Notes under the pieces: model-generated
The model's database searches: none
What the model saw: only the letters and a program-made list of their open reading frames with translations
What the model was told of the DNA's origin: nothing
Translations under genes and position numbers: made by a program
Origin: Paramecium tetraurelia
Taxonomy: Eukaryota; Ciliophora; Oligohymenophorea; Peniculida; Parameciidae
Assembly (NCBI RefSeq): GCF_000165425.1
Contig: NW_001799399.1
Coordinates: 633,336-697,335, forward strand
Direction: 5' to 3'
DNA: 64,000 nucleotides
Shown: positions 6,669-43,109 of the stretch, in pieces
Numbering within the stretch: position 1 is the stretch's first letter
Layout: the number at the start of each line of letters is the position of its first letter

Positions 6669-6808
6669 TAATAATAATAATTTAAGTCCTAAAAGTTTTT
6701 TTTTGTTTAAATTTGCGATATTAAAAAACAGGAATTACTTAATATCTGTTAATGTATTATTATTTATATTATATTTCAAAATAATGATATTTTGAATTGA
6801 TTATTATG
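6669..6808. other. Short AT-rich spacer
   Basis: These 140 bases lie between the start of the cysteine-rich gene and the stop of the phosphodiesterase gene, both on the minus strand. They should carry the promoter of the former and the 3' end of the latter. No motif was recognised. Confidence 0.5.
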
Positions 6809-16129: not shown

Positions 16130-16334
16130 CTAATAATAGATATTAATTTAATTGAATAGAGGAGATCAATAATTTATGTAATATTCTGTTGATTTGATTA
16201 TATATTAATCATATAATTCAATCTATGTCATCCTATACAAAGGATTATTATCATTATAATAGATAGCAAGGTCGATTGTAAATACTTTTTGGGTATTATA
16301 ACAATTTCTCTCTTTGTCTTGAATTCAATTTATT
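16130..16334. other. Spacer between CDPK start and giant-gene stop
   Basis: A 205-bp AT-rich spacer on the upstream side of the CDPK gene, with no open frame of quality. It should hold the CDPK promoter and the 3' end of the giant gene. Confidence 0.45.
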
Positions 16335-19300
16335 TCATTTATTCATCTAAGAATACAATAAAAAATTACTGGTCATTAAATCTGGATTGCTAACTAAATT
16401 GTTATCTGCAGTGAAATATGCTTTGTAATAAGAATTGTCAAATAACAAAGTATAGTTGAAAATAGCATGTAGCTTTTGATCATCAGTGCTTGTTTTATTG
16501 CTATATTCAAATCTGATTTTGTAGACCCATTCCTATTAAATATAACTAATAACATTACCTTCTGAACTGGATAATTATTGGAATTAAGTCCCATTGAGAC
16601 TTGTTTGGATGAAGGAGCAGGTGAATCAGCTGGTAAGACCAGAGTGTACAAATTACCAGTGTATCTCAGAGACACATTGAAATACACGGCATCTTCGGTG
16701 ACATTGATCTTAATGGGATTATACTTAAACTCTTAAGGATACTCGAAGTATTCCCAAGCAGTGTTGAAAATGTTCTGATCTACGACTTCTGGGATTTCTG
16801 ATTGCAACAGATCCAAGTTTTGTTAGATTAATCTAATATATTCGTATGGCGATAGACCACCAACAGTTGCATCTGGATTAATTTGGAATGTATATGTTAC
16901 TGTTTGGGAGTCCAGTATTGATTGTACATCAGAGTCTAACTCACCATCAATTGTATATTTCTTGGGTTTCTCAATAGTTTAAAAGCTACTAGAAGGCAAT
17001 CCAGTGACTAAACCGAATGCACTCAACAATTTGTCAATATCAACATCTTTGCCAAGAGTGATCTTGAATTAAGCAGGCTAGTATTTGGTTGCAGTTGTAA
17101 AGTCGAATTATTTGACTTCGGTATTGTTGTTGCCACTTAAATCTGTAACAAAGAAATAGAGGGAATAATCTGTTTATTCTGTCAATCCTTGGAGATCCAA
17201 ATAGACATCATTATAGATATAATCTGAGGTGACAGGAGCAATAAAGCTTTGATTATTTCCAAATTGGGTGAATACATTAGTCAGTTTTTGTTAAGATTTT
17301 ATTTGCTCCATGGTAGGTTTGGGATTGCCTTTCAAGGTCAAATAATAGTACAAGGTAACACTTTCATCAATGCTGGCTCTGAAATACATGCTGGTTCTTT
17401 TTACATTGACAGCATAATAATTTACTACTTCAGGTATTTTGTCATCAGTCTCTAAGATTTCAAAATTGACAATATTATCAAGTATTGTATATAAGGAACT
17501 GTATTTGTCAACTATTTCAAATTAGATCTGGCCTGATAAAGCAGTTTATTTGGTAGTGTATTAAAGTTGAATGGAGGTTGTGCCAGCAGGGAATTTGACT
17601 TATCCAGCTGCATTGATGGGTTCAAATACCAATGAACTATCTTGATAAGGATTGATAGTTGTGAAATTGACTAGCAAGTCTTATGCAGCTGGTTAAGATA
17701 GAGTTAAAGTCATAGGTAATGATGTTCCACCTAAGGCTACTCTGAATACTCTTGGATTGATTGTCATGTATAATTGATTAGCAGTAGGTTTATCAACATA
17801 TTAAAAGAAGGAATCAGCCATCTCTGAAAACTTGGCAGTTGCTGATTCTACTTTGAGCCAACTGAATTGTTTTAATCCAACCTCAGTGGCATCATCATTA
17901 ATAGCCTAGATTTTGAAATACATCTCAGGTCCATTTGAAGGCAAAAACACTAATTCTGGTGGACTAAATTTAAATTCAGTTGACTAAGGGGTTAATGTTA
18001 CAGTATGACTGACAGACCTTTGGAGTGTAACCTTAATTGGTTTTGTTGTTAGATATCTAGGCAATGGGTCTATGCTTTCAACTGTGATAACTAATCCTTG
18101 TTGACTATAAGACAATGTTGAATTGGGTGATAGTGTTCCAAAGGTTTAGGCCACAATGTTTTTGTTTTGTGTGTCATAGATACTCACAACAAAATTATCA
18201 GTAGGACCTGCTGAACTTGGATTCTCGATATTGTCTAGAATGTAACATAACTATGCTGGACTATTCTTATTGCCCACATAAGCAGCAGTGTGACCAGAGA
18301 CAGCTATTCTTCTTAAGGAATTTGAATTCTTGCAGGAAGGAGATGAAGTTGAATTATCGTATGGCAATAAAGCATTATTGTGATCTAAACTGATATAACA
18401 AGGATAGCTCGATGATTTAAATGTAAATTGTTGTGGGAAATCTACAAACACTTAAGCTCCTAAAGGAATACTGATGTCTGTTTAAACACATAATGTGTAA
18501 GCAGCTTTAACTTACAAGTTTGTTGAAGAAGTAGCTAATTTAACCAATTTCATAGTCGATGGAGCTGCAGTTGGATTTATTTCAGCTGCCCCACTATTAT
18601 AAGTCAAAACATTGTTGTTGGAGTCAGTTGTCAATACGTCAATGGATCCTTTGATAGCAGTTGTATCGAAATTTGGATTGGTTATTCCCACCACTGAAAG
18701 AGTGAACTCTGTGTTTTAATCAATATTGGCATTCAAACTGACAGTTAATTTTGAATTGGCAGCAGAACATGGAACAATTACATTTGTTCCATTTTTGAAT
18801 TGTAAATTACATCCTAATGATAAATCAGATCTAGTCAATCCAGAAGGATAGGTATCAGTTGGAAATTGAATTTGAATAGTGCTGCCACTTGTCATATTTC
18901 CACTTGATGTCATATTCAAAGAATAAGTTGACACTTCTCCTGCATTAGCTGGTTCCATTATGAAATTGTTAATAGTAAGTGAAGGAACAGCAGGCTTGTA
19001 AGTGAATTTCAAAGAGGAATCCAAAGGATCTGTTTAATCAAGTAAAACATTGTCATAATAGGTTTAAGCTTAAAATATTTTAGTACTTTCGAAAGAAGGA
19101 TTTTTCAGTTTCAACATTAAGAGTGTCAAAGATCCTCCTTGAGGCCAAGTGAATTGATTCTTGATTCTCAACAAATAATTATTGATGTCCGAAGCAGAAT
19201 CGATAGAGTAGGTATAAGACAAAGCATCACTTGTCCAAGAAGCCCCTAATTTAGCTAGAGTGATTGAATTGGTTACAACTGATGCCCATTCTTTAGGCAT

Positions 19301-22300
19301 CTTCAATACTATTTCTCCAGATGCTGGGACTCTATATGAATTTTGAATAACAAAAGTGTATGATGCTGTTACAGATTAAAAGTTATTGGTATTTGACAGT
19401 TTCATGTAAATGACACCTACATTTTTCTTAGCATAGAATTAAAATGGTGAAAATCCAATTTCATTTACTTTCTCTCCATTTGGATGATACATTGTCAAAA
19501 CATAATCAGAGGCTAATGTTTATCCAGCATAATCAGAATTTTTAACTCCACTTAGTTTAATTTCCAACTCTTGCTGTGCTGGAATGTCTTTTGCTACAGT
19601 TACCTTAATTCCAGTTGTAGTCAATACACAACTAGTAATGTAAACTGAATTTAACAAACTACATACAGCTGGAGGAGTACTAGATGTGACATGATTGTAA
19701 TTCAATAAACCACGATTGGGGAATGTAATATCAATTGAACCTCCAGCAGGAATCTTGTAACTTGGAGAAAATTTGAAATCGTAATCAACAAAGATATCAC
19801 CTGCAAAATAACTACTTAATAGCATTGATTATGTGCTTGGAGTTGCTACATTTGGTGGAGTGATTCCACTTATAATGCAATCCACTCTTCTGTATTGAGA
19901 TTTTACAATCCTCATTCTAATATTATATGGAGTTGAGAATTCATAAGCAGGACCTCGTAATTAAGATATCTTTAGCGTATTAGTGCAACCAGTAACAGAG
20001 GCACCTGTTGGGAATGTGAAATAGATTTCTCTTGTTAATGGATATACGATGGTGGACATCTAAATCTAGTTCCATAACGCAGATATAGCACCATTTGATT
20101 CTGATGGGAATTCAAATTCTGGTGGGAATGTCAAAACAACTTAGTCTCCTGCCTAAAGTGGTTAATATGGAGTGGCTGGAGTTGTGCAATTGATGGATAT
20201 TGGATTGATAATCACTTGCATGTAGGCTCCAACTACATTAGGGTCCATTAAAATTTCAGCACTTGTTGGACATGTGGTAAAAACTGTATAACAGAGATTG
20301 CCATAACAATTAGGATCATAAACAGGTACAAAGTCAGTTGAATCTTAAATCAGTTCCACCTTTGTGCCATCACCCTTCTTTTTATAAGCTGATAGAGTGA
20401 CATTTCCTTTATTCTAATAAAATTACCCATTCTTAATATTCAAAAAGTGAACTTCTATTAAATCACCTTAACTGATATAATCAAAACCTCTAACTTCTAT
20501 GATTGCTGGATAATCAGGAGATTATTAGCTTGAAGCAATTAATGTACATTACAATGTACCTTTCAAGTTTCCGAAACCTTGACATAGGACATCTGTACTT
20601 GATTAACCTAGATTTAATGGGAATCCTGGATATCCACTATTGACAAAATCTTTGGTATTAAATTTATATCTTAATGTTCCAATAGGAGGAGCACTTAAAG
20701 GATCCTGACCTGAAGACGAAGTATCATAACCTGCTGGAATATCAAGTGGAGCTGTGAACGTTGCTTTAATAACAGTATATTGATTGGCTTCTCTAATTGT
20801 TGATTTGATAGAGAATGTAGGATCAGTAGCTGATGTAATTGGATCAGGGACCGCATATGCTTAATTGTAATTGTATTCTCTTTACACATTACCACCAGAA
20901 TCTGTTGAATCAATAAACACTTAGAATGTGTCATCTTAAGGTGTGGATGGTAACTTAATGCCATTGCCACCAATTGCATTCTTTGTTGTTACAGTAACCA
21001 TTGAACATTCTGGCTTTAATCCATAAGTGTTATCGGTACTCAAAGTAATCTTTCTGTCTGAGGTGATTTTGCAATTAACAGAATCCAAATCTGAATGATA
21101 TTCATTACTAATTTGACAAAGTGCATCTCCACCATTTGCTAGATCATAAGCAAGTGGTAACCAGATTTGTACTTGTGTATTTGAATTATCTGTTGTAGCT
21201 GGATGACTTGTTCTAGGTAACACTCTCATATGAACTTCAGCATAATCATCTGTTTAAGCTCTTCTATTCTCATATGAGATGGTATTTCTCCAAACTCTAA
21301 AAAGATTTGGTTATTTGACAGTATTTCCTCCAACCCAAGTTTATCCATCTGTGCCTTTGGATTCATCTATTACATATGATAAATTGGTTGAACTCTCATA
21401 AGTTTTACCATACCAACTGCCAGTCCATTTCTCAGAATTTGGATTGGTTAAGTTAAAATCAATTATCATCCATTAATCTTCCCCATGTCCTTAATAAGTC
21501 TAGAAATTATCAATTTCTATAAGCCACTTGTCAATGGGAGCTGGCAATTTTGTAATGACACAAGTAATTTTATTATCTAGATCAGCAGGATCTCGACTTA
21601 CTAATCCTCTATTAACTTTACAGTCTTATATATTTTAATAGTCATTTGGTGCCCAAAGTCTGATGTGTTTCATAGCCGAAGTAGTGGTTTGGAAATGAAT
21701 TCCCATATGATGTCTTACCATAGTGTTTTAAGCATTGTCATTTGTAGTTGTTTAAGAAACAATATATAATTGCCCAGTAGTAGGAGATATCTTCCCTCCA
21801 TTGAGTTGATATGTCTGATTGCTAATCAACCTATTATTTCTCCATATGTAGATTCTTAAAGGCGATGCTTATGCAATGTTATTGCTAATTGTTGGATCGT
21901 TAGTAGGATTATTCTATTTATAAACAAAGGGAGGATTTATAAAATTACCAGATTCCCTTTACTACCATTTAATAGTAGGATCCTAAATGGCAGCACTCAT
22001 AACCCACCAATGATTATAGTGTTAAGGAGTACATGGAGACAAGTAGCCATCTGAAAAGTTGGCATTGTATCTTCTTTGTAAACAATACCCTTTCATAGGC
22101 AAAGTATAAGGATAATTGAAATCATAGACAATTGTATCAAACCATTACACATTGTTATCACCAAAATAAGATTGCTATTGGGATAGAGCCACCTATGATC
22201 TTGAAATACCCCAAGTTGAAGTGGATGCTGCTGAGGGACTTGGAGGAGCATAAAGTGATGGAGGGAGATGCCAACAATAGTGTTCGTTCTGCGGATAGAA

Positions 22301-25300
22301 TGTACCATCCTCTTAAATGACTTCTACTGAGATTTTCACATGTTGGAAGGCTCCTTGGACATAACCATTACGAAAATCAGCAATTTGGAAATGGAACCTC
22401 TCTGCTGCTGCAATAGCATCAAAATAACTTCCAACTATATAAGATGGAGTGTTATTCCACACTTTATCTTGGCCTTTGATATTGTAACATTCAATATAGG
22501 TATTACCTTTAGGTTGCAATGGTCTATTTGCACCAGTGGTCTTGTACATACCATTACAAGCTACTTGTGCTCTGTCATCAGTTGCTGCCATTCTATTAGT
22601 CAAATCCATTGGCCAAGACTCTTCTAATTCATTATGTGTTATAAACTCAAAAACTAATCTAGAATAGGTAAGTAAACTTGGATCACCAGCAGGAATTGCA
22701 TTGGTTTCAGTTTGAGCAGTAAAATTGAGAATAGTCCAAGTTGGATCACCACCAACTGTACTTGCTTCCCAACCAACACTTTAACAATCAAATCCAAAGC
22801 TATCAAATGGGCATCCTGGAATCTAGGCTTCAAACCAACCCTTGTCATTTGTATTTACACCATTCTACATAGCAAAGAATGTGATCCAATTTAAATCCGA
22901 TGGGGATCTAACAACCCATCCATCGCCACCAAATTAACCGAATGTTGTAATTACTAATTCCCATTCATCTCCTACATGTATATCTATTTCTTCAGGAATA
23001 TAAATTTGTAAGGTGCCACCATTAACTCCAGCAGTCCAATCACATCGATGAGATTTGATATTGACTAATTAGAAGTCATTCGGGTCATTGAAATAACAGA
23101 CAATGTATTTTTGAGTTGAAACTGGCCAAAATGTATTTTGCATCCATAATTCAATATAATCATTTGGATACACCAAATTTTAATCTCTCAAAATAAATCT
23201 CAATCTAATTGGTCCCTTTCTACCTCCACAAATGATATAAGGATGTTAATATCTGTCCCAAAGAGTAACAATTAAATTACCTCCTTAGATAATTTAAGTA
23301 AGTGGAGTATTCTCAAAGAAGGTTTCTTCATCAATCAACCAAGTATTCTAGTTCTGATCCCAATATGTCCTCCAAATAAATGGAACTTAAGTTTACACGT
23401 TTGTTGGATTCACAATATCAAATTTAACACTTAAATACCCATCAATATTAGGATCGTAATCATTCAACCAATCCTTAATTATGATGATTCTGCTAGCTGG
23501 AATAATATCACATCCACTGTCTTATAAATTTTAGGATACTGTGCAATATTGATCAGTGAACACCCAATCATAACTTGGTAATGGAGGGAATGTAAAGACT
23601 ATTTTACCATTCTTAGGAATTTTATTATAAGGCAAGAACTTCAATTCATAAGTTTAAGGAGCTGCAGTTTCAGCTGGAGCAGGAATAGGATCAATAGACA
23701 TTTATTTAACTGTTGTAGATGTCTAATAAGCCAGTCTGTATTATGTTGCAGTTGTGAATACACTGTATTCAGTATAAGATCGAACTCCGATCTCTATGAA
23801 TAAAGTCATTTTATAATTGACTCCAGTGGGTATCTTGTATGGCATATTTTTGAATTTCTGAATAGTCAAAGTTTATGTAGCTGACTTAGTTAGCACAACC
23901 TTAGGAACAAAGGTAATCCATTTTGCAAGTTTATAAATAATTACAATATGATTGGTTGCAGTAGTGTATTCTATGTAATTGTATGGGTATAATCCACCAT
24001 TTGAATATAGAGTACCGGTTTCTGGATTATAAGGGTGCTCAAAAATAGTTTCAACATCGTCTGTACTCAATACCCATCTGTCATGGCAATAATCTAACAG
24101 GTCATCATAAGGATTATTGACTGTGGCTGTTACTCCTGACATTGCTCCAACCATATTTACTGTGAATGTTGGGGGTGTTATGGCAGTGTAAGTAGTAAAA
24201 GCATCAGGAATTGTATGGAATGTGTAAAAGTGAACAATTTCAGAATGATTTCTAGTTGATTTAGTACTTGCTTAGAATTCATAAGCCAACATTGATATTT
24301 TGCCATATGTGTATGAAGTTGATGGTAATTTTATTTTCGGGAAGGAAATTTCAACTATTTATTATGCTACCATGTCTTATTATGGATTCAACCATATTTC
24401 TACTGGTGCTACTCTGTGACTAGATCCTTGGTACACATAACATTTGAAAAATGGTTCCAATGGATCAATATTACTAATTTGAGGACAAGTGCTGCAAAAA
24501 CAATCAATCTCTTAAGCATTCTTGGTAAATCTACCTAAACCATTAGGGAACTATGATTATAAGTTGTCATCATCCATGGTTGGCAACTTTAGAATAATCT
24601 AACCCCAATTGGTATTTAAATTGGAGGATAATGTTCTTCTTAATCTAAAGCTAACTGTAAGGTCTGTTTGAGTATCTATTGTTCCTTAATGTACAGCAAC
24701 ATTAGTCTAGTATGTAGGTACTGTTGTTTCATCAAATCGATAATTCTAATAAGTAACGTATTTTTGGTAATCCGTTGTGCCTATTGTGATTTTCTTATCC
24801 TTAATATTAGCAATAGGAACTGAATCGTCAGTATCGTCATGCCATTAATAAGTGAAATCTGTTTATCCAATTTCTTAATGTCTCCATACCATAATTTTAA
24901 TTGTTACTATATCACCTGATGCAAAACCTGTATCTGAGGGTGCATACATTGTTATTTTATCATAGTTGGCTGAAGTATCTCCATTTCTACAATTCATGGC
25001 AGCTAAATTATTCCAAAAGCAAGCAAATTGTAATCTTTTGGTATTAATAGGCTGTTTGATTGTGACAGTCATGAAATTGTTGGTATCTATTACCACAGTG
25101 TCTGTCTACTTTGTTATTGCACTAGTCAATTTAACAGTTAAAGTGATTGGTCCTATTTCGCTATCTTACAATAATATTTAAGGTGCTTTAATGTAAGGCA
25201 TAGCTAATCTCATTTTAGTAAAGTTTATTATAGTCTAAGCTGTCAAAGTGTTTGATTAAATTAGTAAAGTAGAGGTATCCAAATTATCTGCAAAAAACTT

Positions 25301-28300
25301 CACTGTGATGCTTTTGCTACCAGGTGTTGTAGGAGTTTAAACCTAGATTTTTGCTGTGATTGCTTTAGTAGCCTTGATTGGAGTATTGAATATTATCTTC
25401 TTAGTTTATGCATCTATATCTGTACAAGTAGTCGAATATTCTAGATTTGTAAGATCATCGAAAATTTTGCAATATCCACCACTCAAAGTATAATCAGTAG
25501 GGAATATGATTCTAAATTAGTAATTGGTCTTTACTGGACCCAACAGAGTCATAGGAATCAGCATGACTGACAAAAAGTCTTTCATTAAATCTGAGTTACT
25601 ACTCACAGTACCATAATTAGCAATGTTAGATTATGTGGTTGTCACTGAGGTTGTAGTAGTTGCAACCTAAACAATAGTTTTGGTTTGGTAATTGATGAAA
25701 GATGCAGTAACTGCATGAGATTTAGTAAGAACATAGCTTGGTTAAATGAGACCATTGGTTATTGCCATAGTGATTGAAGTTCCTGTAGAATAGCCTGTTG
25801 GGAATACTATGAATACATTTTGCGAATCTAATGGGTCAATTCTAGAAGCAGTGCCACCAATAGTAGCTGCAAATATAGTGTAATCTTCTCCCCATATAAG
25901 AGGATCATAAGAAATTTTGACTATTGATTCATAATTGGGATCCACATCCTTTGTGAGACTAACCTAATATTAGTAATTGATTTGGGAGAAGCATGGTAAA
26001 GGTGTGATGGTTAAAGTACCAGTAGTGGATGAGGTGGCTGAGGATGCTGGTAAGGTATAAGCAGCAGCATAAGCATAGGTGTATTCATAAGAGTCAGCTC
26101 CAGATATTCTAATTTCGTAATCCATGATTAAATCAGTTGTTGAAGGATTCTTAAGATTTTGGATCACAAATTGTACTGTAGCTCCACTACCCAAGCCTGT
26201 AAAGTTGGTCAATCTAACGAATGAATGTGGTTTTTAGAAATCAACTATTCCATAGTACAAATAACATTTAAAATAGAGACCCAAGTTGCCAACCTTATCC
26301 AAACATCCAATTCTCTATCCATTTAGTATGCCAGTATTGAGATTATTTGTATTCAAGATTTTGAGTGATCCATCACTTTGAACATCTCTGATGGGAATTA
26401 AGACATCAATATAATCAGAAGAAGCCAAGGATTAAGTGGTCTTGTATTTGACGTAGAAGTTAGTTGACTCAGAAATGTGATCAACATAGCTTTGAGTGAC
26501 TAGATCAGAAACTTGATTGTTATAGATAGTAAATGGCAATACTTGAGAATAAGTGAGTGTTGCTCCTGCAAAGAATTTAAATTTCAGTTGGTATTGTCCT
26601 TATAATGCAGGTTCTGATAAGAATTTGATAAGGTTTTGATCATATTTGATTATCAATTCATAGACCTTATCCTTAACTAATTTTGGATTCAATGTAGTGA
26701 CTGTTGCTACGCTGTAAGTAATAGTAATTTTTTTATTTGTGGTATCTACAGTACATAAAGAAGGGACATGTTTGGCTAATTAAGTAGCCTTCTCTTTAAA
26801 CATGCATTTCAATCTATTAGTTACATCAAAGTTACCCAGCCCTAAATTCGCGGACTCGATAGTAAAGGTACCACTTGATGATAGATCAGCAAGCAATGAG
26901 AACTCAATCGTTAACTATCTTTCTACACCCTTAACTATTGCTTTGAAATTATCATAAAATAATTGCAATCCAAATGGTTATTTAACCACTCCTGATAATT
27001 GATGTCCTGATGCTGTATTTGAAGCTGTTATTGAAGCTGCTGTGCAAGAGGCTATTGCTATTGGTGTAGACTGGTTCTCATAGATTGTAATAGTGAATTA
27101 AACGGATCCAGCTGCAGCGGCAGTCTTCTTTTTGTATTTGATACAGATTTGACTATTACTGTTCATTTCGAGATATTCTGACAGTCTCATCCCATATGGA
27201 TTAGAGGTAATTTATGAGAACTTAGGTGGATACCCACTGTATGGAATATATTAGTTAATCAACGAGGATCCTGAACCACAGGTCACTTCATATGACCAAA
27301 TGTCATTATATGCAGAATTTGTAGTTGTAATTTCAATATATTAATAACATGTTGAAGTAGACACACACCCATTATGGTTGAAAGTCTTGAAGTTAGAGGG
27401 AAGTGTGAACGAAAACTCGAAAGAGGTGGAATCTATTTGTTGGGCAGAGCAAGTTGCAAAACTTAGACTGCTAGCACTTGTAGATCGAGTCAATATGATT
27501 TTCTCTTTAATAGATCTATCTGTTTTATCTAAGATGAGCACAATGGCTGCAATATCAGTAAGTGAAGAAGTAGGATAATATGGCAATTCTATATTACTCA
27601 ATGTAAATGCAATATCTGATTATCCATTGGCCATCTTTCCTTCAAAATAGCCCATTCTTTAATTAGTATAAGTATTATCTAAAGTTGTAGTTGTTGATGA
27701 TGACGAGATTGTAGCTGTGGAGGAGAGCATTTTCATTTGATTATATGTACCATATTTCACTGAATAGCCGCCAATAAGTTTAATGGCAAAATAATCGTCA
27801 TCAGCGAATGAATTAATACTTTGCTAAGTGTATATTGTAGAGGATGTTATTGTGCCAATAGATTAAGCAGATCCAATATGATTCAATGATCCACTATTAC
27901 TTAATGGAGCTGAAGGATTCAATTCACTTAATTTAATTATGAAACTTTCTCCAAACTTATAGATCTAATTGTTACCCTATCCTTTAATATAAAAACCGAA
28001 CTAAAACATTTTGGTCATGATCCAATAAGTTGGTGCAGAGTATTAATATTAAAACCATATTTTAATGCTGTTGATACTAGTACTTTGTTATTCGAATTTG
28101 CTAATGATGATTCTGTTATTGAACGGATCTCTGTGAGCAGTAGCTGAACCAATTGAGTTCAATCTAAAAGCAGGCACAAATTCACAATCTGAATTCTAAG
28201 CCGAAGCATAATCACATTATTCTTTTATAATTGTAGTTGGCAAAGAAACAAAAGAACCTAATAGATCCAAAAACAATTCTCCATCAAAACCATTAAAATT

Positions 28301-31300
28301 GGTTATGGCTGGTGGATCAAAACTAATCTCTAAAATATTGCTACCTCCTCCATTAGTTGTGTGCTTAAAATTAGCTCCGAAGGATTCCATTTATTGTTCA
28401 TAGACTATCACTGAACCAGTAAATATATTTTTGACTACCCCATTGTTGTCTATTAATTAAATAGTGACAGGGAGTAAACCATAAGTGGTAATTTTAACTG
28501 TCTAGACTAAAAGATAGAATTCTTGTTAAATTGTGCTTGGGTCAATGCCTGTAATTTCCAATTTATCTGTACCTGCTACATTGCATAAAGGAGTTCCTGC
28601 AGATGAACCTTCTGCAATTGATATTGAACATGAACCAGAACCACTTATCATCCCTTCAATAAATACGTAAAGTTTAAAATTGGTTGTATCCATCGTGGAA
28701 ATAGAGGGAAGTTAGAAATGTAAATCATTATCCACATTTTTAACTCCTGGTTTCAATATTATTGACAATATTGATTATGAAGATGTAACTGAAGCGAAAT
28801 TTTATGATGATATGATAGACACTGGTGTCTTCACATCCCAAGATGGCTTAAGGGTATCTGGAGATATTTCATAACCATTATATCTATTTTTCAAGGAGAA
28901 TGTAAATGTGACAACACCTGATGCTCCAATAGTAGAGGGCAAATACCCATAAACATCGAACTTAATAGTTGTTTAGGCTTTTAAGTATGAAGATAATAAG
29001 GTGAAAGTGGTTATCGATCCTGCTGCATTTGTGTAGGTGACTGATGTTATTCCTCCTGATTTTAATTCTATTCTCTATACCTAAAACCTTGTTGGATCTG
29101 TATCTAAAATCAGTTGTCCCCCCATTGGAATATTGTGACCACAAGTGTAAACAAGTTCAAATTTATAAAATGAATATGGGAAGTATCTCGCTGCTGTTGC
29201 ATCAGCTACATACAAGGATCCTGCTGAAGCAGCCGTATATGGGAGAGTGGGATTAGATGCAGGGCTATAGGAACCACACACCCTTGTTAAACATGCATAA
29301 ACTTAAAATGCCAAATTTGTATAAGTTGTGACTGCGCTATACACTTAATTGATATTAGCCAATACAATATTTTGATTTAAAGTGCAAGCAGTAAGACCAG
29401 TGAATCTCTGTATAATCCAATGTGCATAGATTTCCAAGACACTTGTGGTTGCACATGTTCCTCCTGTTGTAACAGTTGCACTCGATATGTCGTAATAACC
29501 AACTGGGAATCTATAGGCTACGTAAGAATATCCATCAAAAGCAGTTCCTCCAAAGTTTACACCGCTAAATGTAATTAATGTTGTTCCCTAAACCGTTGCA
29601 CTGGTTGGTGTTATTGTTGTTGTCATTGTAGAAGGATCAAGCACTAAAGGAATTACAGCATCTTCAAAATAGTATGCCTCTAATTTATTATTGTTTACAT
29701 CAGCAGTGTATAAAAAGACATCTGCTGAAGCTGCAGAAGTTGGCAAAGTTACTTATTCAATTACTATTTATAAGGGTTTCCCGCTTATATCACTAGTAAA
29801 TGATTAAATTACAATCAATGTTTGGAAAAATTCACCAGAATTCTTAAAGATTCTGCAATTCAAACCATTGTTTTATAGGTCTGAATTTATTGAATAACAT
29901 CCTGGATACAGATCACCACTGTTATAAACTGCTGATTATTAAAGATTTTCTTAGAACAACTTAGTAGTACCATCGATTGCATAATTAGGGAATGCTATTA
30001 CAATCTTACCTGATTTCGGAATTAGCACTGAATTTTTAAAGGAGAATAATAGAGCAGTTTCTGTATAACCAGTAGTTTTTATTCCTGAATTTACTATTCT
30101 CAATTATGTATATGTAAATGACTCTGTTGGTAGTATTTCAAATCTTAAATTTCCAGTGTCACCATTATCTTAGGTTAAAGTTGCTGTAAATACTCCACTA
30201 GCTCCAAACATTAACCCATGATTAATACTATTACCCCTTGAACTTATTGTAACTTTGTATTAAATGCTTGCAGCAAAAGTTACAGGTGAGACTGGCATCA
30301 ACATGATAACATCAAGAGAATTAGTTCCATAACAATATGAAAATTTATGAACAAGTCCTGTTGCTCCTTCTATCGTACAATATAAAACAGCACCTGCTGG
30401 AACAGAAACTAAAGCTAAGGCTGGAAAACTTACAGTAATTTTAGTATTAGCAGTTGGAGTTGTTTTAAAAGATAAATGAAAAGTAAAAGGAGATATTTAA
30501 TTTTTTCTTGCAACTGTTGGATCTTTTGTTTTCCAATCAAGTGTTTTAAATGATGCATAAGATTACACGTTGAAAGCAGAAGCAGCAGATGTCCATAATT
30601 CAATAGTTCTACCTGTATCCTTCCAAGCTTTGAAATTCCAAAGTGCTGGACTCAAAGCAGATGAGGAAGTTTTGCAATATGTTTCAAATATTATTTTTTC
30701 TCCCACTTTTATAGGTTCCCAACCAGTTATTGTAAGTTGAGGTCTTCCAGTAAATCCAGTAATGGTGGATGATGCAATTACACTGGTCTAAAGATTGTCA
30801 GCAGTAACAAACTTTGCATTAGTATCAGAAGTACTTAAGGAGTAATCATATGCAGTGAAACCAGAGGGCAAAAAGATGTCGATAATTGAACCATATGGTA
30901 GTGTAATTGATTATGTGGGAATGGTGATTTCTACTCGTACTCTGATTTCAGTGCTTTTTGGTATCGTAGTGTTGTCAGCATAGTCAATGGGAGTGACAAT
31001 AGTATTATATGCAGTAGCAGCCAAAGTAGGTAATAGATAATCATTAATAGCAGCATAAGTATAAATTGTAGTTATAATTCTATCCTTAACAGCATAAGCT
31101 GTGCACACAATTCCTGTTGTAGGAACCTATATGGGATTGTTACTATTTTTAAACTTCAAATTAGCTTAGGCTTAAATAGTGCTCAAGGGTTTAACAACGA
31201 TCCAATTATTGCCTTAAGATACTCTACAAACATACACAGAACCTGATTCACATTGAAGATTTTAAGGTTATGGATCGAAGTATGGTTAAGTATATTCAAA

Positions 31301-34300
31301 GATAAAGAAATCATATTCTTCAGTATTTTTTAGTTGAATTGCGGATTGCATTTTCAAATCAAAGGTGACTGATTGATCAAATAAGGTATCAGAGGACTTT
31401 GTTGGTTTTGGTAGAGTTCCAGTAGTAATAGTGTAATGCTTTAATGTCATATCATAGGAAAAGCTCTAGTCAAGTAATAAATTGCTAGCGCCATTGTAGG
31501 ATTCTAGTTTCATTTCAATGTGTTTGTCATCCCCAATAACATCAGGAGTATAGAATTGATCGATATCGAATTCATAATATTTATCAGTTCCTGTGAATGG
31601 AGGACTAATAACTCTGGAAAAGAGTTCTTGGTATCCTGTTGTAAATGATGGATCAACATTCAATGAGCCAATCCACCCTTGTATTAAAATGTATGCTGGT
31701 TATCCATAGACCCTATTGCCTAGATATAATTTGCAATCCAAAACTGTGGAGGGAGGAAACCCATTTCTGGCATAGCATTAAATTGAATCGCCATCCTTTT
31801 TACCAGTCCCTAAATCATCCTAATACAGAAATTCTGATTCCTCAGAGAGAGTTGGAAATGATAATTTTAAGTAACCTCCTCCAAAAGTCCCTGTTGAAAT
31901 AGGTACAGAAGTTACAGGATTGAATCTACACAACCATCATATTCTTCGATTTCACATTAGTGATCAAGGAGACACATTCAAAATACTTAAATGCCTACTT
32001 TTATGGAACAAAGATATCACTATGTTTTAATTCAAGAGTTGTATAAATATCAAAAGTATAAGTATTCATAGCTGGCAATTAGAACCCTCTACTTCCATCA
32101 GCTGAATTCTAAGTATCAATTATGACTCTATATAAAGTATCCTTTTTGATTTTTGTACTCAAAGGTGTGTACATTGATAAGATTCTCGTACTTTTGTCAT
32201 ACAAACATTTCTCAGCAGGCAAGAAGTTATCATTATGATTATCAAACCATGGTGAATCATCCCATAAACAAAGATATTAAGAACATCTAACCTTATTGAA
32301 AAGAATTGGAAATTTGATAAACAGTATATCACCTGCTGCGAGATCATTCTATAAATTGATTCTGAATTCTATGCTTCCATACAAAGTAGTTCTTCCTCTT
32401 ACTCTGCTTCTATAAGGTGTATCCCAATATTCAATATTAGTTTATGCAGTCAAAGCAGGTGTTGCAGTATCTCCATATGTAATCAATTTATTTAGTGGAC
32501 TTTCATTCAAATACCAAGTCTTAAAGTCCCAGTGTTCAGTAATCGTCACTGTGTTATCAGGATTTTCCATTCTGACTTTTATTATTATTTTTCCAGGACC
32601 AATGAATTTGTTGAACCCAGTAATTAGAAGTTGACTATTGGCTCCATCGTATGCACATTCGAATCCCACTTTAGATAATACTGATCCACTTGCAACATCA
32701 TTTCTACATCCATTTTCTCTTATCGTAAGTCCTGTCGGTATTTTGATTGTTATTGCTCCAGTTGTAGGTATGTTTTTTGGGTTTGTGACTGTAATAGTGT
32801 AATCTGTTATTGCTTCATAGAAACACAAAGTGCAAGTAACAGCTGGAGTGACTGCAACTGCATTTAAAACTTATGTAAAATCAATCTTGTAAACATATAC
32901 TAATTTAGATCGAGTGAAGACATAAATCTTGATTGGTGGATCAGATGTTGCTACAAGTACCTTGAAGGGTGGTGTTTTAATTGTCACGGAACCAGATTAT
33001 AAAGAGTCTGCTGTGATTCCACTATCTGGGTACAACCCTATGTATGGACCCAATGGATAAGAATAACAGATATTACCAGCCGGGAAGGAACATGTAATTA
33101 GGCCATAAGGTAAATCCCAATTTGGAGGTATTTCAAACAAAATCATATCTGCTCCTCCACCCATGTTGTAATCTTTGCTTCCATATTACAATGATAGTGT
33201 TGCGACTGTATCAATTGTAGCAACAGAGAATGTAGGATTAACTGCTGCTGCCCACACATTTTATAAATCATCTTAGACCAATGCTGGTATGTCAACTGCC
33301 AATTTATTGAAACCAGGCTATTCTTTAGTCCTTCCAAAGGTTCCATTAATTAAATCATAATCAGATGATAATATGAGTTCACTTGTACCCGTAATAGCAT
33401 CAGTTTTTTAGACTTGAAGTGTAATCTTAGTTAATTCATAAGTTGAATTAGGATTGAAAATGTTTGGCAAATGTATCTCTCCATTTGTATTTACATTGAT
33501 TTGATCAAAATCAGTGATAATTACTTTGGTAGGATTTGGATAACTACCATAAAACAGTCGACATTTTAGTTAAGTAGCGCCAGGTAATAAAGTGAAACCA
33601 TCTTAAATGCAAGGTAATTATGTTCTGTGAGGCAGTCCAGTTCCTAAATCTTATTCAAATCCATTTGTGAAAGTTGGCCAAATGGTTCTATGGAAGAGAA
33701 CTATAATTGAAATTGGATCAGGATTATCTGAAGGTGGAATTGTTATAGTATTTGTAAAATATAGTCTAAACACTGACATTCCCTAAAGTGTTGCAGAGGG
33801 AGTAACAGGATCATAACCAACTTTGTTTGCAGACCAAACCCAAAATACTCTGAATTTAGGAGGATCTATTGTCATTACCTTTCTAATAAATTAATTTGTT
33901 CCTGTATTAACAGTTTCAATTTTTAATTTGTATGTTCCAGCTTTGTTGTGATGTAATCCTTCTTAATAAGTTGATGAATAATCTGCTCCTCTTGTACTAA
34001 TCATAACTAAGTGTTCTTGATTGGCTATCATTCCCTATGTTAAAGGCATAGCCATTGTTATAACACCACCTGCCCAATCGCAAAATCTAGCTAAATGACC
34101 ATCCAATCTGCAATGAGGATAAGCTCCTTATGGCATTGAAACAGCAGTAGTATTGAAGGTAAATACTAATCGAGGAGCTGTATTAGTTGTGTAATCAGGA
34201 ATATTATGATTTGTTTTTACATGCATATAGAACTCCCCCCTTGTTCCTTCTCTTGCCTTATCATTAATAATTATGAAGTCCATCCATTCTAATTTTGGTG

Positions 34301-37300
34301 GAAAACGCTTAGGACCAGTGATATCGATTCCATTTAATACAGGGTTAGGTGGATAGGCAGTATTATAAAAATTGTCTACATTTGAAGCAGTTGATGTTGG
34401 AACAGTGGCATCAAAATAGGTTTATATTCGAATAGGATTAGCAGTAGTAGAAGCCAATCCAGTTTTACCTCTGAATGATAAAGTAAATTTAGTTAGGACT
34501 GGAATCTCATTAAATTTTGTTAATTGATAATATTTTGTTCCACTTACATCCACTAAATTACATTCATGAGTGTGTCCTAATCTTTTAGGTGGACTTGTAA
34601 CTCCTGACCAGACTTCGCATGTCGTTGTATAATCTACCAATCCATTCTATACTTCTAATTCAACAAGACCATTTGCTGGAATTTTGTGGCATGTGGTAAA
34701 TGTTGCTCTGAAAATGATCCAAGAATCAAAATCCATATCTACAACCTAAGATCTATCGGCATTCATTCCCACAGCTGTTTTTGGTAAAATGTCAAATTGA
34801 GGTGGACCCAATATGCCACCATCAATAAATATGTTTGATGTTGGGAAAGTGATTCTCTTCATTTTTCTGTTTTGATTCCAGTATATCAATTTTATATCAA
34901 TTCCAGGAGTATAAATTATGGGATTATATATGTTTGACAATTACACTGGACCATTTGCTGCTACGTTTCCAGAATTAACTATGATGAAATAATAATACTC
35001 TCCTGTGAGAAAGTGATCAATTAAATAAACAGTACCTTGAGGACTAGTGGCTGTGACTCCAAACTAATTGGGAAATCTAGTTTTATCTGTAAACTTAATT
35101 AATATGTGATCTGGGGTTTAATTTGCGCAATAAGGATAGTTAGTAGTACCTGTATTGCATGCTGTTATCACTTCTGTATGCTAAAATTACAATGTCCATG
35201 TTGTTAATTCGCAAATTTATTTTCTTGTTGATAAAAATGTTGCTGAAAGTGTTAGATCTTATACATCTTTTGCCAATGTTGGAGGACTAACAGTTACATC
35301 CTTATAAACATCTCCCTGTTTAATAAATCCTACTGATTATTTTAGGTAATTCATCATATAAGGCTCATCTAATTCTGTTGTCCAAGCAGATGATACTGTA
35401 ACAAAACATTACATATCATAAGCTGTACAGGATTTAACATTTGGTATTACAACAAACACATTTGTTCCTGTGTTTACTTTTGAACTGAATCCTCTTACTT
35501 ATAAAATTGCGTATTTTCTAGTAGTTCCTCCTGAGAAAACCCAGCATTGAATATTAGGATGACTTGCTCTGATACTTACATAACATGGTATTCTCTTTTT
35601 CCCATCATTTCCTAATCCGAATCCAAGATCATTTGGCCATGCAGCAGATGACTCATAAGTTGAATTTACTGTGCTCATATTGAAATTAATTGCCCCTTCA
35701 TATGGAATTGGTAACATTACAAGCACATTTGAATAGCATACCATATCAGCATCCACTTGATCAACGGATGTACATTTTATGTAAGTGGTTGGTGCAATAA
35801 ATTAATCCGCTGCTATTTCCATTGTATATAAATCTTATTCTAATGGTGTTTAATCAAATGTGTTATATACACCATCATTAAATGTTAACACTCTGAAATC
35901 AAACCTTCCTGGGATTGGAGTGATCTAAGAAACAGCTACTGAAATTGGTAAATCGCAATTACCAAGTCCTGAGTTTGGATCATATTTCAAATAGTTTGTA
36001 GATGTTGCAGTTTTAAAACTGAACCTTTATAAGTAATAATTGCAAGTTGCTGCTATTTCTGCTCCAAAATTACAAGTAGGTGTGCTGCCAACAACATTCC
36101 AACCATTGAAGTATTATCCGCTCATTCTCCACCATAATGGGATCTAAAAGTAGATACTGCCATAACTTGTTGGTGAAGTAGTTAATTTTAATTATTTGCT
36201 AGGCATAGGGTATAATCGGAAATCCAATGGTCCGGTCTTATCCAAAGAAATATTTTGCATTTATTTATATAAATCTATTGCAACAAAGTAAGGACTCTAA
36301 ATCTAGGATATCTGAATAGATCCAGCTTCAACATTTTGATCGATTCCTTTGTAATTACTACTTGTCCCACTTACAACTGGAACTTTCCCGAAAGTAGAAT
36401 ATGTGTAAATTTGACAGTATTAGTACAATTTTGAAATTGAAGGATTGACAGCGTAAATTTTAAGAGTAATTTCTTAAGGTGAGAACGATGCAAAATCTGT
36501 TATTGTTATTTTCTGGCCGCTAGTTACACATGATATTGGGGTTGTTCCATTTTGAGATAATCCAGATATAATTCTACAAGTTGGATCCAAAGTAAAACCA
36601 TCAGGAATGATGTAATCGATTCTTCCAGTGTAAGGAATTTTGTTTTGTGGAGTGAATTTAATTGTGTAATCAATTCTTAAATTTTAATTTAAAGGAGCGC
36701 CAGCAATAGATGGATTAATAATCTAGCCAGGAGTGATATTTGTAACACCAACGTTGAAGTATTCAATTACTGTATTGACTAAAGGTTCTAATGTTTCGAA
36801 GATGAATGGATCTGAATCTCCTGATGCAGAAGGATTTATAACATTCTTCAGTTTCACTTTATGTTATCCTTTAGGCAAGGCTGCATCTATGGCACTAAAA
36901 TAAATTCTTCTTCCTTCTACTTGACAATTTAGATTTTATAAAGTATCTACTAAAACGCATTCAACATTAGATATATCGAATCCTTCAGCTATTTCAGCCC
37001 TAAACCAACTTCCTTTAATTAAATCTATTGTTGTAGTAAACTAAATCACGTAATTCGTAACATAACCTCCTAATTTTGAACCATCATTTATTATTTGACC
37101 TTCAGAAGCTAATTGATTTTAATATATGCATACCTATTGTATGTTTCTTGTAAACTGGTGCAAAGCCAACTGTACCAAAATTTAAATTTTAGTCCACTGG
37201 AACAGTATCCCTTAAAGTTATTATTTGAAGATAGCCGCTCGATTTCCCTCCTAATCCTACTGGATTTTTGTTATATTTTATTCTGACTTTCTAGCTACCA

Positions 37301-37739
37301 GCATTAAGAGGTTCTGAACCGAAAAATATTGTAATTGTTCTGTTGCTAATTGTATAGTAGTTTGTTGCTGGTATAGTCACCGCTGGCTCCACATAAGGTA
37401 TGCATGTCGTTGTAGTTGAAAATGTGTATTCGATGTAGCATTCCTTATCAATATTCGTAGCCTAGTGATATATTATTAGAAGTTCCTTACTGCCATAACA
37501 TCATCTTATAAAAGACGCAACTATGTTCCATCAAATTCCTAAGGGAATGTAATTTATAATCTTCCATTTGAAGAAATTCTTGTGCTCACAGATAAGAAAA
37601 TATCGTAAAAAGTATAAGCATCTTCATTATTTCTGTAAGGTACTATTGGATTAGCACGATCAGGGTAAATGAAATCTAAAATATAATAAAATTGAAGACC
37701 TGCTATGATTTCTGTAATAATTGCAAAAAGTAAAATCAT
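16335..37739 (-). CDS. Giant secreted modular protein of about 7,100 residues
   Basis: Start ATG at 37737-37739, stop TGA at 16335-16337, a span of 21.4 kb. The N-terminus MILLFAIITEIIAGLQF is a signal peptide. The rest is a long series of beta-strand-rich modules of about 120-160 residues. A typical module runs: a strand ending in P-x-G, a strand of the form I-x-I-x-F/I-P, a first Cys 8-15 residues on, a second Cys 15-25 residues later, then strands ending near N-P. Examples are GSTIQIQFPTDTYPSG, GRIDYIIPDGFTLDPTC and GAITIKIPTGLTIRENGC. Two paired cysteines per module suggest one disulfide each. Short introns (25-29 nt) were placed near both ends. The C-terminus has no clear membrane segment. 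I recognise no named family; a surface-coat or matrix role is inference. I translated the 5' end, the 3' end and many internal samples, not every codon; one frame problem lies near 31.95 kb. Confidence 0.75.
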
Positions 37740-37971: not shown

Positions 37972-38820
37972 ATGTAAAAAAATGTCATTTTAAATTACTT
38001 ATAAAATGGTTCTTCATTTTATCCTTTTGGAGATGAGCCTTCACAAAATGATATGAGTTTTGATCCTTTCATTCCATTTCAAAAAGAAAGAGATAAAACA
38101 GGGAAATTGATTAAGAATACAGATTCAAATTTTGTGAAAATCAAAAAGAATACGTAATAATATTATACTGACCACTCATATTCCAACATCGATTTACTAA
38201 ATTCTAATAAACTTAACACTGAAATAGATTAATCAAAATAAATTCCTTTGATAGAACCTATTATGTAATTACCTTTAATACATAAACCTCAATTATAAAT
38301 ATCAACTTAGGCTATTTCAACTTCTAAGTATACCTTAAATTAGAATTTAATTGAAATAGGCTTATAATTGAAAAAATTGAAAAAAAAATCTTCTCTTTAA
38401 AAGGTCTCACTGTTAAGCAGAAAAACCAAGTCTTTGGCTTTTTAAATACCATCTCTTGGAATTTATGATCCAATTCCTTATTCTAAACACTTGCCAAATA
38501 TTCAAATCAAATCAAAAAAAGCAAGGCAATAAATAGAGGAAATTTCTCCAAAAATCTTAATATCAATTCCTCCTGTGTAGAAAAGTAAAAAGAATGATTT
38601 TGAAATGATGTTTGCAAAATAAATGGCCTCTATTAAACGATAAGTGGATTATGAAATGTAAAGAAATCCTAACTAATTGTTTAAAGTAGAAAAATTTGAT
38701 ATATAACAAAATTTAGATCTAGAAGAGGCTGATTAACTAAAAAACCGTATGAAAAGATATTTTTAAAGCGTTAAAGATAGCTTTATAAAAATAAAAAATT
38801 TGATGAACATCAAAAAATGA
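37972..38820 (+). CDS. Unrecognised soluble basic protein
   Basis: A single uninterrupted frame runs from ATG 37972 to TGA 38818-38820, 282 residues, with TAA/TAG as Gln. The N-terminal third is acidic and polar (PFGDEPSQNDMSFDPFIPFQ). The middle is rich in Lys, Ser, Ile, Leu and Gln. The C-terminal third (from about FEMMFAKQMASIKRQVDYEM) is charged and helical, with coiled-coil character. There is no signal peptide or membrane span, and no family was recognised. A second ATG lies 10 bases further on in another frame but closes within 30 codons, so the start at 37972 is preferred. It is divergent from the giant gene. Confidence 0.65.
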
Positions 38821-39923
38821 ATATTTTAAATTTAAGTATTTTAATCAAGATATATCAAATTGTGACTTCTAAAGGTGTAATTCTAACATAAAACAATATC
38901 TAAATAGTTAAAAAATATCAAATTGTGCAATTATAAATAATTTTGTATCTTTTCTGTCAATTACAAAAAATTATTTTTTTAATTATAGTTTATTTACATT
39001 TTAATTAAAATTAATCAGATGAATCAAAATAATCCTTAATTTAACAATATACTATTCGCTATGAAAATTATACTTCTTTGAATAATGTTTCTCTATTATC
39101 CTTAGCCTTTTGTTTTTAAGACTAGAAAGATCAGATAAGAAATGTTTACTGACGCTTATATTTTTTATTAAAGATGATTGGTTTAGGTCTATGTGGTTAG
39201 AAAAGAGTATATTTATGGAGTCTCCTAGCGAAGGGAGACAAAGTAATTAATCTTTATTCAATTAGGATTAAATAGTAATTCTAATAATGAATCAATTCAT
39301 TGTTTAATTAGAAAATGAATTATTATTTTCAGAAGTATCATTATCGTTATTCTTATTCTGGATACTCCTTATTATTAATAGAGCTAATAGTTTAATTTTG
39401 AAATAATCCTAAAAAACTGACTTAAGGTAGTAAATAGTTGTACTTATTTTTTGTAGAATGAAATAATACTTATTTTATTGAAATAATCGTAACAATTCAA
39501 CAGAAATTTGGGTGTAAAGTTAAAAAGTTTTTGAATTTGAAAACTAAAAAATATAATTATAAATACAATTGAGAGAAATTGCGAATTTTTTTTTTTGAGT
39601 AATTATATATATATAATTGTTATTATTTTAATGGTTTATTATTTATTCAGTTTTTTTATTTATGAAATTTCTTAGAATTATTCGTTAGTATCTTGAGAAT
39701 ATATTTTTCGATAGATTATTATAAATTACAATTATCATATCTTATAAATAAATTTAATTTCTCTGATAAAAAAATTAAATAGTTACATCATTTGTAATAC
39801 TAAAAATATATAATTAAAAATCTTTAGCATTATTGAAATTTCGAAATATTGTGTCTTTATTCTCGATAATAATCATAGATTATGTTTCTTTATAATACTT
39901 AATATATTTTAAAATCAAATTTA
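38821..39923. other. Long AT-rich region without a confident gene
   Basis: About 1.1 kb lies between a plus-strand stop and a minus-strand stop, so this is a convergent interval and unusually long for this genome. A TGA-free plus frame of about 170 codons covers roughly 38.96-39.49 kb but has no sensible start or motif; frames that long are expected now and then when TGA is the only stop. The centre holds a small G/C-rich hairpin at 39220-39239. From 39540 onward the sequence is nearly pure A/T, including (TA)n at about 39606-39617. Confidence 0.45.
39220..39239. other. Perfect 6-bp inverted repeat (hairpin) in AT-rich spacer
   Basis: GTCTCC and GGAGAC, separated by the 8-base loop TAGCGAAG, form a perfect 6-bp stem that stands out because its surroundings are very A/T-rich. 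It could be part of a small RNA or a chance palindrome. No polymerase III boxes or other support were found. Confidence 0.35.
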
Positions 39924-41999: not shown

Positions 42000-43109
42000 A
42001 AATTAATAATAAATTGATATTTTTATTGTTTAGAAATTATTAAAAAACTAATCATTTAGAATACTTTCTAAAAGGTTTTTATTTCTTTAGTGAAATCATT
42101 TCTAATATAAAGAGATACTAAAAGAAGGAATTAATAATTACAATTGTTAAATAATACCATTTGTCTCTTTTGTACTTTGATTTGAGTTATTGGCATTTTT
42201 TTTTGTAAAATATTGTTTTAATACAATTAGGTAATTTTCAGTTTCTAATTATTTTCATAATAGTTAAATCTCTAATAATTTAAGGGCCAAATATAAGGAA
42301 TTATCATAGATATAGGACTTATTTTGAGCCGTAATCCAATTTTGTTAGTCGATTCGTTATATCAATTTAAGCATATTATAATAATTATATTGTTTTTCTT
42401 TTGTTAAAATATCTAGGTACAAAAGGTTTGTTTTATTAAAGTTACTTGTTAATCAAAAATACTTTTTCCGCTGTTTGAAAAAAAAAATTGAAGATTATGA
42501 ACTAAGGTCTAGTTTTGTATTCTCTTTCGTCAATATAAATAATTGATTATGACCTAAATTAATATAGGTCAGATACACTTAAGATCTTTATTGAAGAAAT
42601 AATTCAATATTAGATCATTTAAAAATGAAATAGGATTTAAATTTTAATCCAAAAAGCTGAAAAAGGTACAATATTTTATCTTCTTGTCTATAAGATAGAA
42701 TAAATCGACTTAAGGTCAAAATTTATTTTGACAACTATTATTTGATGCATTATATTCATTTATCCTTCAAGAATATTTTTAGATTCATTTGGAATATTTC
42801 AACTCTAATACTTATTCCTATTCCATTTTAAATCAATATTTTATTGCAATTCTTTCTCAGTATTTTACCTTAAATACTGGACTTTGATTGTGTGTCACTA
42901 TTTGTCTTAAAAAGATAAAGACTTTTTTGATTACTTAACTCTCTACAAATTACAAGGCTTTTGAATTACTGAATCCTTTAATAATAGAATTTTTATGTAA
43001 TAAAGATATTGAATGAAAATTGATTTGATTCTTAAATAATTGAATTATAAGTAATGTTATAAAGAAATGATTAATAATAATAATGGGCTCATTTCACTAA
43101 TGTAATCAT
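42000..43109 (-). pseudogene. Possible decayed 5' extension of the vWA gene
   Basis: Reading from an ATG at 43107-43109, one frame gives protein-like text interrupted by TGA at 43089, 42756, 42615, 42453 and 42255, all in phase. It includes well-formed stretches such as YLDILTKEKQYNYYNMLKL and SYIYDNSLYLALKLLEIQLL. A one-base shift at the nine-T run 42196-42204, followed by an assumed 34-nt intron, would lead into the frame of the vWA gene. Against this, five TGAs in about 300 codons is close to what random AT-rich sequence would give. No homology motif supports it, and the frame may be meaningless. If real, it is the lost N-terminal third of the downstream protein. Confidence 0.3.

Follow-up and report, generated by a model that had tools for sequence, protein, structure and literature searches.

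A 64,000-nucleotide window of the Paramecium tetraurelia genome (NCBI RefSeq assembly GCF_000165425.1, contig NW_001799399.1, positions 633,336 to 697,335 of the forward strand) contains one minus-strand gene of about 21.5 kb, whose predicted product of 794 kDa we refer to here as the giant protein. Its frame is open, its sequence is built of recurring modules, it belongs to a family of smaller proteins, it ends in a hydrophobic tail in the gene model chosen, and most of the blocks into which we cut it repeat one another. The reading that we favour, and consider fairly probable, is that of an anchored chain of modules of about 800 kDa, from a family of proteins of about 2,000 residues, that grew by block duplication and acts as a rod-like adhesin or spacer.

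Paralogs and the block repeat

At least five paralogs of the giant, spanning 1,979-2,079 residues in the models chosen, were found in the same genome (69 Mb searched, in 231 contigs). All of them begin with a short hydrophobic stretch, continue as modules in a row (about ten each for C19, C179 and C222) and, after a C-terminal region that is collinear among them, end in a hydrophobic tail. When a full-length profile of the five (2,012 positions; C19 numbering is used below) was aligned with the giant it matched the N-terminus, then parts of the paralog region of about 270-860 repeatedly, and then the remainder through to the C-terminus, while the reversed giant gave no match at an expectation value (E) below 10. 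Homology is collinear at both ends (giant 2-866 with C19 3-860, E 1.5e-29; giant 5270-7125 with C19 262-2043, E 4.2e-99), and between these lie matches of giant 980-1521 to C19 298-825 (E 4.4e-19), 1590-1981 to 273-713 (E 1.5e-5), 3481-4102 to 363-1012 (E 0.014) and 4668-4877 to 307-548 (E 6.7e-7). Overlapping 700-residue pieces add an in-phase match of giant 2254-2861 to C19 320-965 (E 0.021). It follows from the order of these alignments that the region of paralog modules 3-6 recurs, most clearly near the two ends of the array; a four-module block of about 620 residues seems to occur some nine times in the giant.

Other measures bear on the same repeat. One module subtype gives a single strong match per paralog (all others being E 0.066 or worse) and seven matches at E<0.1 in the giant, with none below E 3 in five shuffles and the reversed giant. 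The cysteines of this subtype, picked by hand, fall on a 618-residue lattice that only 1 in 20,000 randomly drawn sets of seven cysteine pairs equalled. Length arithmetic gives 2,044 + 8 x 635 = 7,124, and a BLOSUM lag plot, read beside five block-permuted controls, has small and weak peaks near lags of 650 and 1300.

For block-by-block tests residues 315-5899 were cut into nine blocks of 590-670 residues, and each was scored against the paralog blocks together with the other eight (leave-one-out), 50 shuffles of each serving as the null. Eight of the nine scored 32-106 bits with null maxima of at most 3.6, their alignments covering 73-94% of the block length, and block 5 failed. Against the paralog blocks alone, eight of nine scored above every one of 60 shuffles, though only narrowly in the case of blocks 4, 6 and 7. 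Because shuffles alone cannot separate block order from mere module content, two stricter controls were run, in which (i) the native order of the block quarters was compared with 23 re-orderings, and (ii) a profile of paralog modules 3-6 was compared with one of modules 7-10. The native order beat at least 22 of the 23 re-orderings in seven blocks (1, 2, 3, 4, 6, 8 and 9), the profile of modules 3-6 was the better in seven (1, 2, 3, 6, 7, 8 and 9), and both controls were passed by six of the nine (1, 2, 3, 6, 8 and 9).

Several observations weigh against so regular a repeat. Block 4 fits paralog modules 7-10 alone better than modules 3-6, block 5 fails every test and fits neither set, being either strongly diverged or replaced, and block 7 shows no preference for the native order (7/23). 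Among the 700-residue pieces the in-phase match of giant 4085-4693 to C19 375-961 reached only E 0.95, and an out-of-phase match of giant 2390-2581 to C19 801-982 (E 0.0064) beat the in-phase match at 2254-2861. Modules that are individually significant number between 13 (paralog-only profile) and 17 (joint profile) of the approximately 42 expected (2 + 9 x 4 + 4). In addition, the cuts between blocks and the subtype threshold of E<0.1 were fixed after the matches had been seen, and three paralog ends (the tails of C222 and C108, the start of C183) were chosen by hand from the DNA.

Five core members is a lower bound; searches with parts of C108, C222 and the C179 minus-strand gene, in which the best candidates were scored, gave no further ones. 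This divergent minus-strand gene (C179:81291-74415) was kept out of the core family, having a single match to the paralog profile (E 0.0095). It sits head to head with the core member at C179 84528-90581 (+) and matches frames at C155:852634-855972 (E 3.2e-10 and 0.0012), and the C179 minus strand and C155 perhaps make up a second subfamily. The C183 paralog has a low-complexity TDGGTT repeat between its modules that was not seen in the other models. A 1,100-residue C-terminal query, which reaches close relatives only, found no relatives in viral contigs or prokaryote genomes. We recognised no description of this protein family in a literature search that had most subscription journals outside its reach, and the giant gene may well have an automatic ParameciumDB identifier already.

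Gene model and the two ends of the protein

Across the locus the open-reading-frame list gives minus-strand frames of 5,187 and 1,844 residues, plus a short first frame, which a simple splice model with four introns joins into 7,099 residues running from ATG 37739 to TGA 16335. Removal of a fifth candidate intron (23 nt, GTA...TAG, 16369-16347) shifts the stop to 16228 and yields 7,127 residues. A profile built from the final 300 residues of each of the five paralogs scores 55.4 bits (positions 21-304 of 307) if intron 5 is spliced out and 48.0 bits (positions 21-269) if it is retained. Because its splicing raises this match and supplies a tail that aligns with those of the five paralogs, the gene probably ends at 16228 and not at 16335. 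Directly past intron 3, the least typical of the five, the paralog-only profile matches giant residues 1929-1981 (E 0.0013). In the corrected model glutamine is encoded by 178 TAA, 62 TAG, 112 CAA and 15 CAG codons, and the sole TGA is the terminal stop.

The original prediction had described one gene, read in one direction from ATG 37739, with tiny introns and about 7,100 residues, and on each of these counts our analysis agrees: the whole gene is on the minus strand, the introns are 23-29 nt long in a frame otherwise open under genetic code 6, and no sign was found of separate genes with their own starts and stops. Its extent of 21.4 kb, to position 16335, is what the fifth intron would change. 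Directly downstream is a protein kinase gene (window 15165 to about 16130, minus strand, start read by eye), at a gap of only about 100 bp from the giant gene given the corrected stop.

Might the gene be an artefact of assembly or modelling, such as a fusion of several genes or a decaying pseudogene? A close second copy of the giant was not found in the genome, as such an origin would allow; against it stand 7,127 codons free of internal TGA, paralog-profile matches at both ends and at several stretches between them, in order, and a guanine-plus-cytosine (GC) content that is raised over most of the gene. Of the alternatives weighed here we regard this as the least probable.

The protein begins with a signal-like hydrophobic stretch, as predicted originally, and short hydrophobic starts are seen by eye in all six related proteins modelled; entry into the secretory pathway is probable. 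In the model with intron 5 removed the very end of the protein ranks first in hydrophobicity, and its start is the next independent stretch. Within the window 4 of the 1,215 ends of reading frames are equally hydrophobic, the giant's own tail possibly among them, and a hydrophobic run ends all six core family members in the gene models chosen. Because the corrected C-terminus bears a hydrophobic tail like those of its paralogs, surface anchoring is likely, and the protein, which had been described as secreted, is probably held at the surface and not freely released. The tail may be a glycosylphosphatidylinositol (GPI) signal, and a plain tail anchor is possible instead.

A truly secreted scaffold of a matrix, cyst or coat, with no membrane anchor, would require the gene to end at 16335 and the tail to be the product of a false intron. 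The frame to 16335 is indeed open when intron 5 is left in, the gain from splicing it is a modest 7.4 bits, and by eye the tail lacks an obvious small-residue cleavage site or textbook GPI site. Splicing throughout is predicted from DNA. On the other side, those 7.4 bits come with an extension of the paralog match to position 304 of 307, and the new exon provides both a stretch and a tail that align with five paralogs. We therefore hold free secretion to be unlikely and retain the anchored form.

Approximately the last 600 residues are not made of the repeated module. The fn3 family was matched at E 0.045, under the Pfam cut-off, in one of four C-terminal regions. When the membrane-proximal 198 residues were folded from the single sequence the result was poor, which also counts against our picture of this end (predicted local distance difference test, pLDDT, 58.5). 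Foldseek with this model gave no match at E<=0.001; its first row was MscK, and five rows were ectodomains of IA-2 and related receptor phosphatases (E 0.08-0.5), with template modelling scores (TM-scores) by target of 0.59-0.64 in four and 0.53 in one. We presume, as a hint only, that the membrane-proximal domain may be called SEA-like.

The repeated module and other features of the window

The modules, at about 150 residues each, are very diverged. A self-BLASTP of the giant revealed no internal repeats off the main diagonal at E<=1, and profiles were therefore needed to see them. With a profile built from the five paralogs only, 13 stretches of the giant matched at E<0.01 and 16 at E<1, whereas the reversed giant had none, and 20 shuffles had none at E<0.01 and a single match at E<1 in two of the 20. 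Growing the profile on the giant itself, a circular procedure, gave 25 stretches, and a joint profile grown on five proteins including the giant found 46, of which 17 are in the giant. The dozens of modules claimed originally are therefore upheld as to recurrence, but only 13-25 are seen individually by profile and the last 600 or so residues do not belong to the array. Two spaced cysteines per module had been noted as well, and this pattern is borne out. There are 42 cysteine pairs 7-25 residues apart (shuffle mean 25.1, maximum 39) and in 23 cases one pair follows another at a distance of 120-180 residues (mean 2.5, maximum 9), neither count being reached in any of 2,000 shuffles. In all the protein contains 109 cysteines (1.5%) and 36 sequons.

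AlphaFold2, supplied with 16 modules of the window aligned without outside sequences, returned an all-beta model (Table 1). Among the Foldseek matches listed for it are at least 24 PDB chains at E<=0.001, with identities of 8-15%, including integrin alpha-V, the Bacillus pilin BcpA, the RrgA Jo.In complex, enterococcal ACE19, staphylococcal ClfA, NPC2, a TRAP translocon chain and a glycosidase; the top TM-score in the best 50 rows was 0.63, for Thermus TTHA1873. The module is thus predicted to be an immunoglobulin (Ig)-like beta-sandwich without a close solved relative. For the Pfam scan the giant was divided into four pieces that cover all but approximately its first 200 and last 65 residues. 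DUF2808 reached 25.3 bits (E 1.7e-5), with a cut-off of 25.3, in one of the four pieces (1,525 residues), and matched 3 of 30 single modules, none better than E 0.018. Similarity to YcnI was weak (profile E 0.016), further Ig-like Pfam families fell at E 0.01-0.1, and TIG scored 13.3 bits, under its cut-off of 20.9, for a stretch within block 4. Neither PKD nor cadherin repeats matched any of the four pieces up to E 10, HMMER filters dropping many weak matches, while an NCBIfam scan of the giant gave nothing at E<=1 and PDB sequence searches nothing solid. No curated Pfam or NCBIfam model clearly claims the module, in keeping with the original description of a beta-rich module outside any named family.

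Of the other genes in the window, a 723-residue frame (39924-42095, minus strand) upstream of the giant gene, past a very AT-rich stretch (21% GC, 38001-40000), has no Pfam match at 0.001 and VWA-like motifs by eye. A single frame at 7172-8449 (minus) combines metallo-beta-lactamase and cyclic-nucleotide-binding domains, another at 50473-52092 (minus) contains an FtsH-like AAA domain and an M41 peptidase, and the adjoining acyltransferase-3 frames at 55400-57115 and 57489-59006 (plus) are probably tandem duplicates.

Table 1. Features of the giant gene (window positions) and its paralogs (positions outside the window). For blocks, the leave-one-out score, the null maximum and the number of 23 re-orderings scoring as high are given.
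Feature	Position	Strand	Basis or remark
Whole gene, corrected model	16228..37739	-	ATG 37739-37737, five introns, TGA 16230-16228, 7,127 residues; spliced in silico, code 6
Signal-like N-terminus, first 14 residues	37698..37739	-	most hydrophobic 15-residue stretch bar the C-terminal tail
Intron 1, 29 nt	37462..37490	-	splice model
Intron 2, 25 nt	37109..37133	-	splice model
Intron 3, 25 nt, ends CAG, least typical	31891..31915	-	splice model; next exon encodes a module type shared with paralogs
Intron 4, 26 nt	16533..16558	-	splice model
Intron 5 (candidate), 23 nt, GTA...TAG	16347..16369	-	absent from the original prediction; removal swaps the 16335 stop for a hydrophobic tail
Block 1, residues 315-984	34734..36743	-	85.7 bits, 3.6; 1/23
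Block 2, residues 985-1589	32919..34733	-	105.5 bits, 1.7; 0/23
Block 3, residues 1590-2234, holds intron 3	30959..32918	-	85.0 bits, 0.3; 1/23
Block 4, residues 2235-2849, placing uncertain, weak IPT/TIG-like stretch	29114..30958	-	55.4 bits, 2.7; 0/23
Expected block 5, residues 2850-3439, not recognised as a copy	27344..29113	-	-17.9 bits, below the null mean; 16/23
Block 6, residues 3440-4039	25544..27343	-	56.1 bits, 1.3; 0/23
Block 7, residues 4040-4659, weak	23684..25543	-	32.2 bits, -5.9; 7/23
Block 8, residues 4660-5274	21839..23683	-	59.5 bits, 0.5; 1/23
Block 9, residues 5275-5899	19964..21838	-	73.6 bits, 0.7; 0/23
Last modules, about residues 5900-6530, collinear with paralogs	18071..19963	-	full-length paralog profile, giant 5270-7125, E 4.2e-99
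Module used for structure prediction, 141 residues	18575..18997	-	AlphaFold2 pLDDT 83.0, predicted TM-score (pTM) 0.78, all beta
C-terminal region, about residues 6531-7097, other domains weakly identified	16321..18070	-	collinear in six proteins (alignment)
C-terminal hydrophobic tail, GPI-signal-like or tail anchor	16231..16284	-	most hydrophobic 15 residues of the protein
Paralog C19			2,044 residues
Paralog C179, plus strand	84528-90581	+	2,000 residues
Paralog C222			2,079 residues
Paralog C183	433384 to ~439400	-	1,979 residues
Paralog C108			2,079 residues

Proposed role and known systems

The giant would, in our proposal, be the product of a single Paramecium macronuclear gene and consist of a signal peptide, some 40 Ig-like modules, membrane-proximal domains of other kinds and a hydrophobic tail, ordinary members of the family having about 2,000 residues, with about ten modules and the same C-terminal region and tail. 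A four-module block of about 620 residues in an ancestor of that kind would have been duplicated in tandem about eight times, and the duplication would be old, the copies now being barely alike and the frame having been kept open. Ig-like modules are about 4 nm long, and the chain might stand off from the cell as a long rod of about 170 nm if extended (about 42 modules x about 4 nm), holding its N-terminal part out past the usual coat of surface antigens and serving as an adhesin or spacer of long reach; other rods of this kind keep a binding surface at a distance from the cell. The tail would anchor the protein by GPI or as a membrane anchor, the GPI reading being taken because Paramecium surface antigens are GPI-anchored (PMC9788069). 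The type of anchor, the rod shape, the location and the function are what we infer, and the role of adhesin or spacer is our best guess among several. That the protein is a major component of a coat, matrix or scaffold, as proposed originally, is a conjecture, since DNA says nothing of abundance.

A broader suggestion, which we offer only tentatively, is that Paramecium has, beside its serotype antigens, another and so far unrecognised class of large surface proteins, anchored and built of an unnamed Ig-like module. The giant would then be a rod of about 170 nm, produced by amplifying a four-module block, that projects through the antigen coat and with which the surface of the cell or its cilia reaches outward (for adhesion, mating contact, or contact with prey or symbionts). 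A genome-scale study of surface antigens searched via cysteine periodicity and allows for antigens with other characteristics (PMC9788069). The giant's family would probably escape that criterion, and it provides a concrete candidate for molecules acting beyond the antigen coat. It would also be a case of a giant protein in which a multi-module block was duplicated repeatedly and the whole then kept intact while the copies diverged almost beyond recognition.

Of known systems the surface antigens (serotype proteins, PF01508) come from the same organism group. They are large, with cysteine periodicity, a C-terminal anchor signal, conserved ends and a variable or repeated centre (PMC9788069), and the giant resembles them in its size, its periodic cysteines, its signal-like start and hydrophobic tail, its conserved ends and its repetitive centre. 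That it is a variant of these antigens is nevertheless very improbable. PF01508 has no match in any of the four pieces of the giant up to E 10, whereas elsewhere in the genome it has at least 150 (out of 1,370 candidates, 150 were scored); 14 control genomes yielded none. These matches, UAA and UAG read as glutamine and the introns of 23-29 nt lead us to regard the genome as a macronuclear one of Paramecium. The giant's cysteines, though periodic, are sparse (1.5% of its residues, in pairs about 150 apart), a statement for which the published antigen motif is not the yardstick, and each module of about 150 residues has one pair. Its 794 kDa is more than twice the mass of the antigens of P. tetraurelia stock 51, at 250-300 kDa (PMC12113882). 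Neither by PF01508 nor by size does the giant count as a classical surface antigen.

Among ciliates Jotin of Oxytricha, with relatives in Stylonychia and Halteria, is likewise a single-gene giant with few short introns (PMC3558436, PMC4122937, PMC7858049), unlike ours in its 64.6-kb open reading frame and titin-like best matches (PMC3558436), the two being compared by description only. An intracellular or cortical giant related to this titin-like protein of hypotrich ciliates would differ from what is seen here, in that a signal-like N-terminus, paired cysteines and a hydrophobic tail point outside the cell, and we rate it as less probable still than an antigen variant. A further lead, a Tetrahymena 'giant protein', was dropped, the term referring to a complex of proteins of 92-212 kDa (PMC10901506).

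Further systems with likenesses to the anchored module chain that we propose are bacterial. Gram-positive adhesins of the MSCRAMM type (microbial surface components recognizing adhesive matrix molecules) and pilins, namely ClfA, ACE19 and BcpA, rank high among the module's matches in fold, with TM-scores by query of only 0.50-0.55 and identities of 9-12%, and nothing points to common descent or to a binding head in the giant; in such proteins chained Ig-like domains hold a binding head away from the cell. The likeness to bacterial beta-sandwich domains of the YcnI and DUF2808 type is one of weak profile similarity alone. Giant1-5 of Apilactobacillus kunkeei are, like the giant as we read it, extracellular surface proteins, of 3,000-8,000 residues, but they are bacterial and have beta-solenoid N-terminal domains in Giant1-4 (PMC12863079), again compared by description only. 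The Paramecium module is unnamed in the libraries searched and, if our reading is right, the giant would work in the manner of other giant surface rods.

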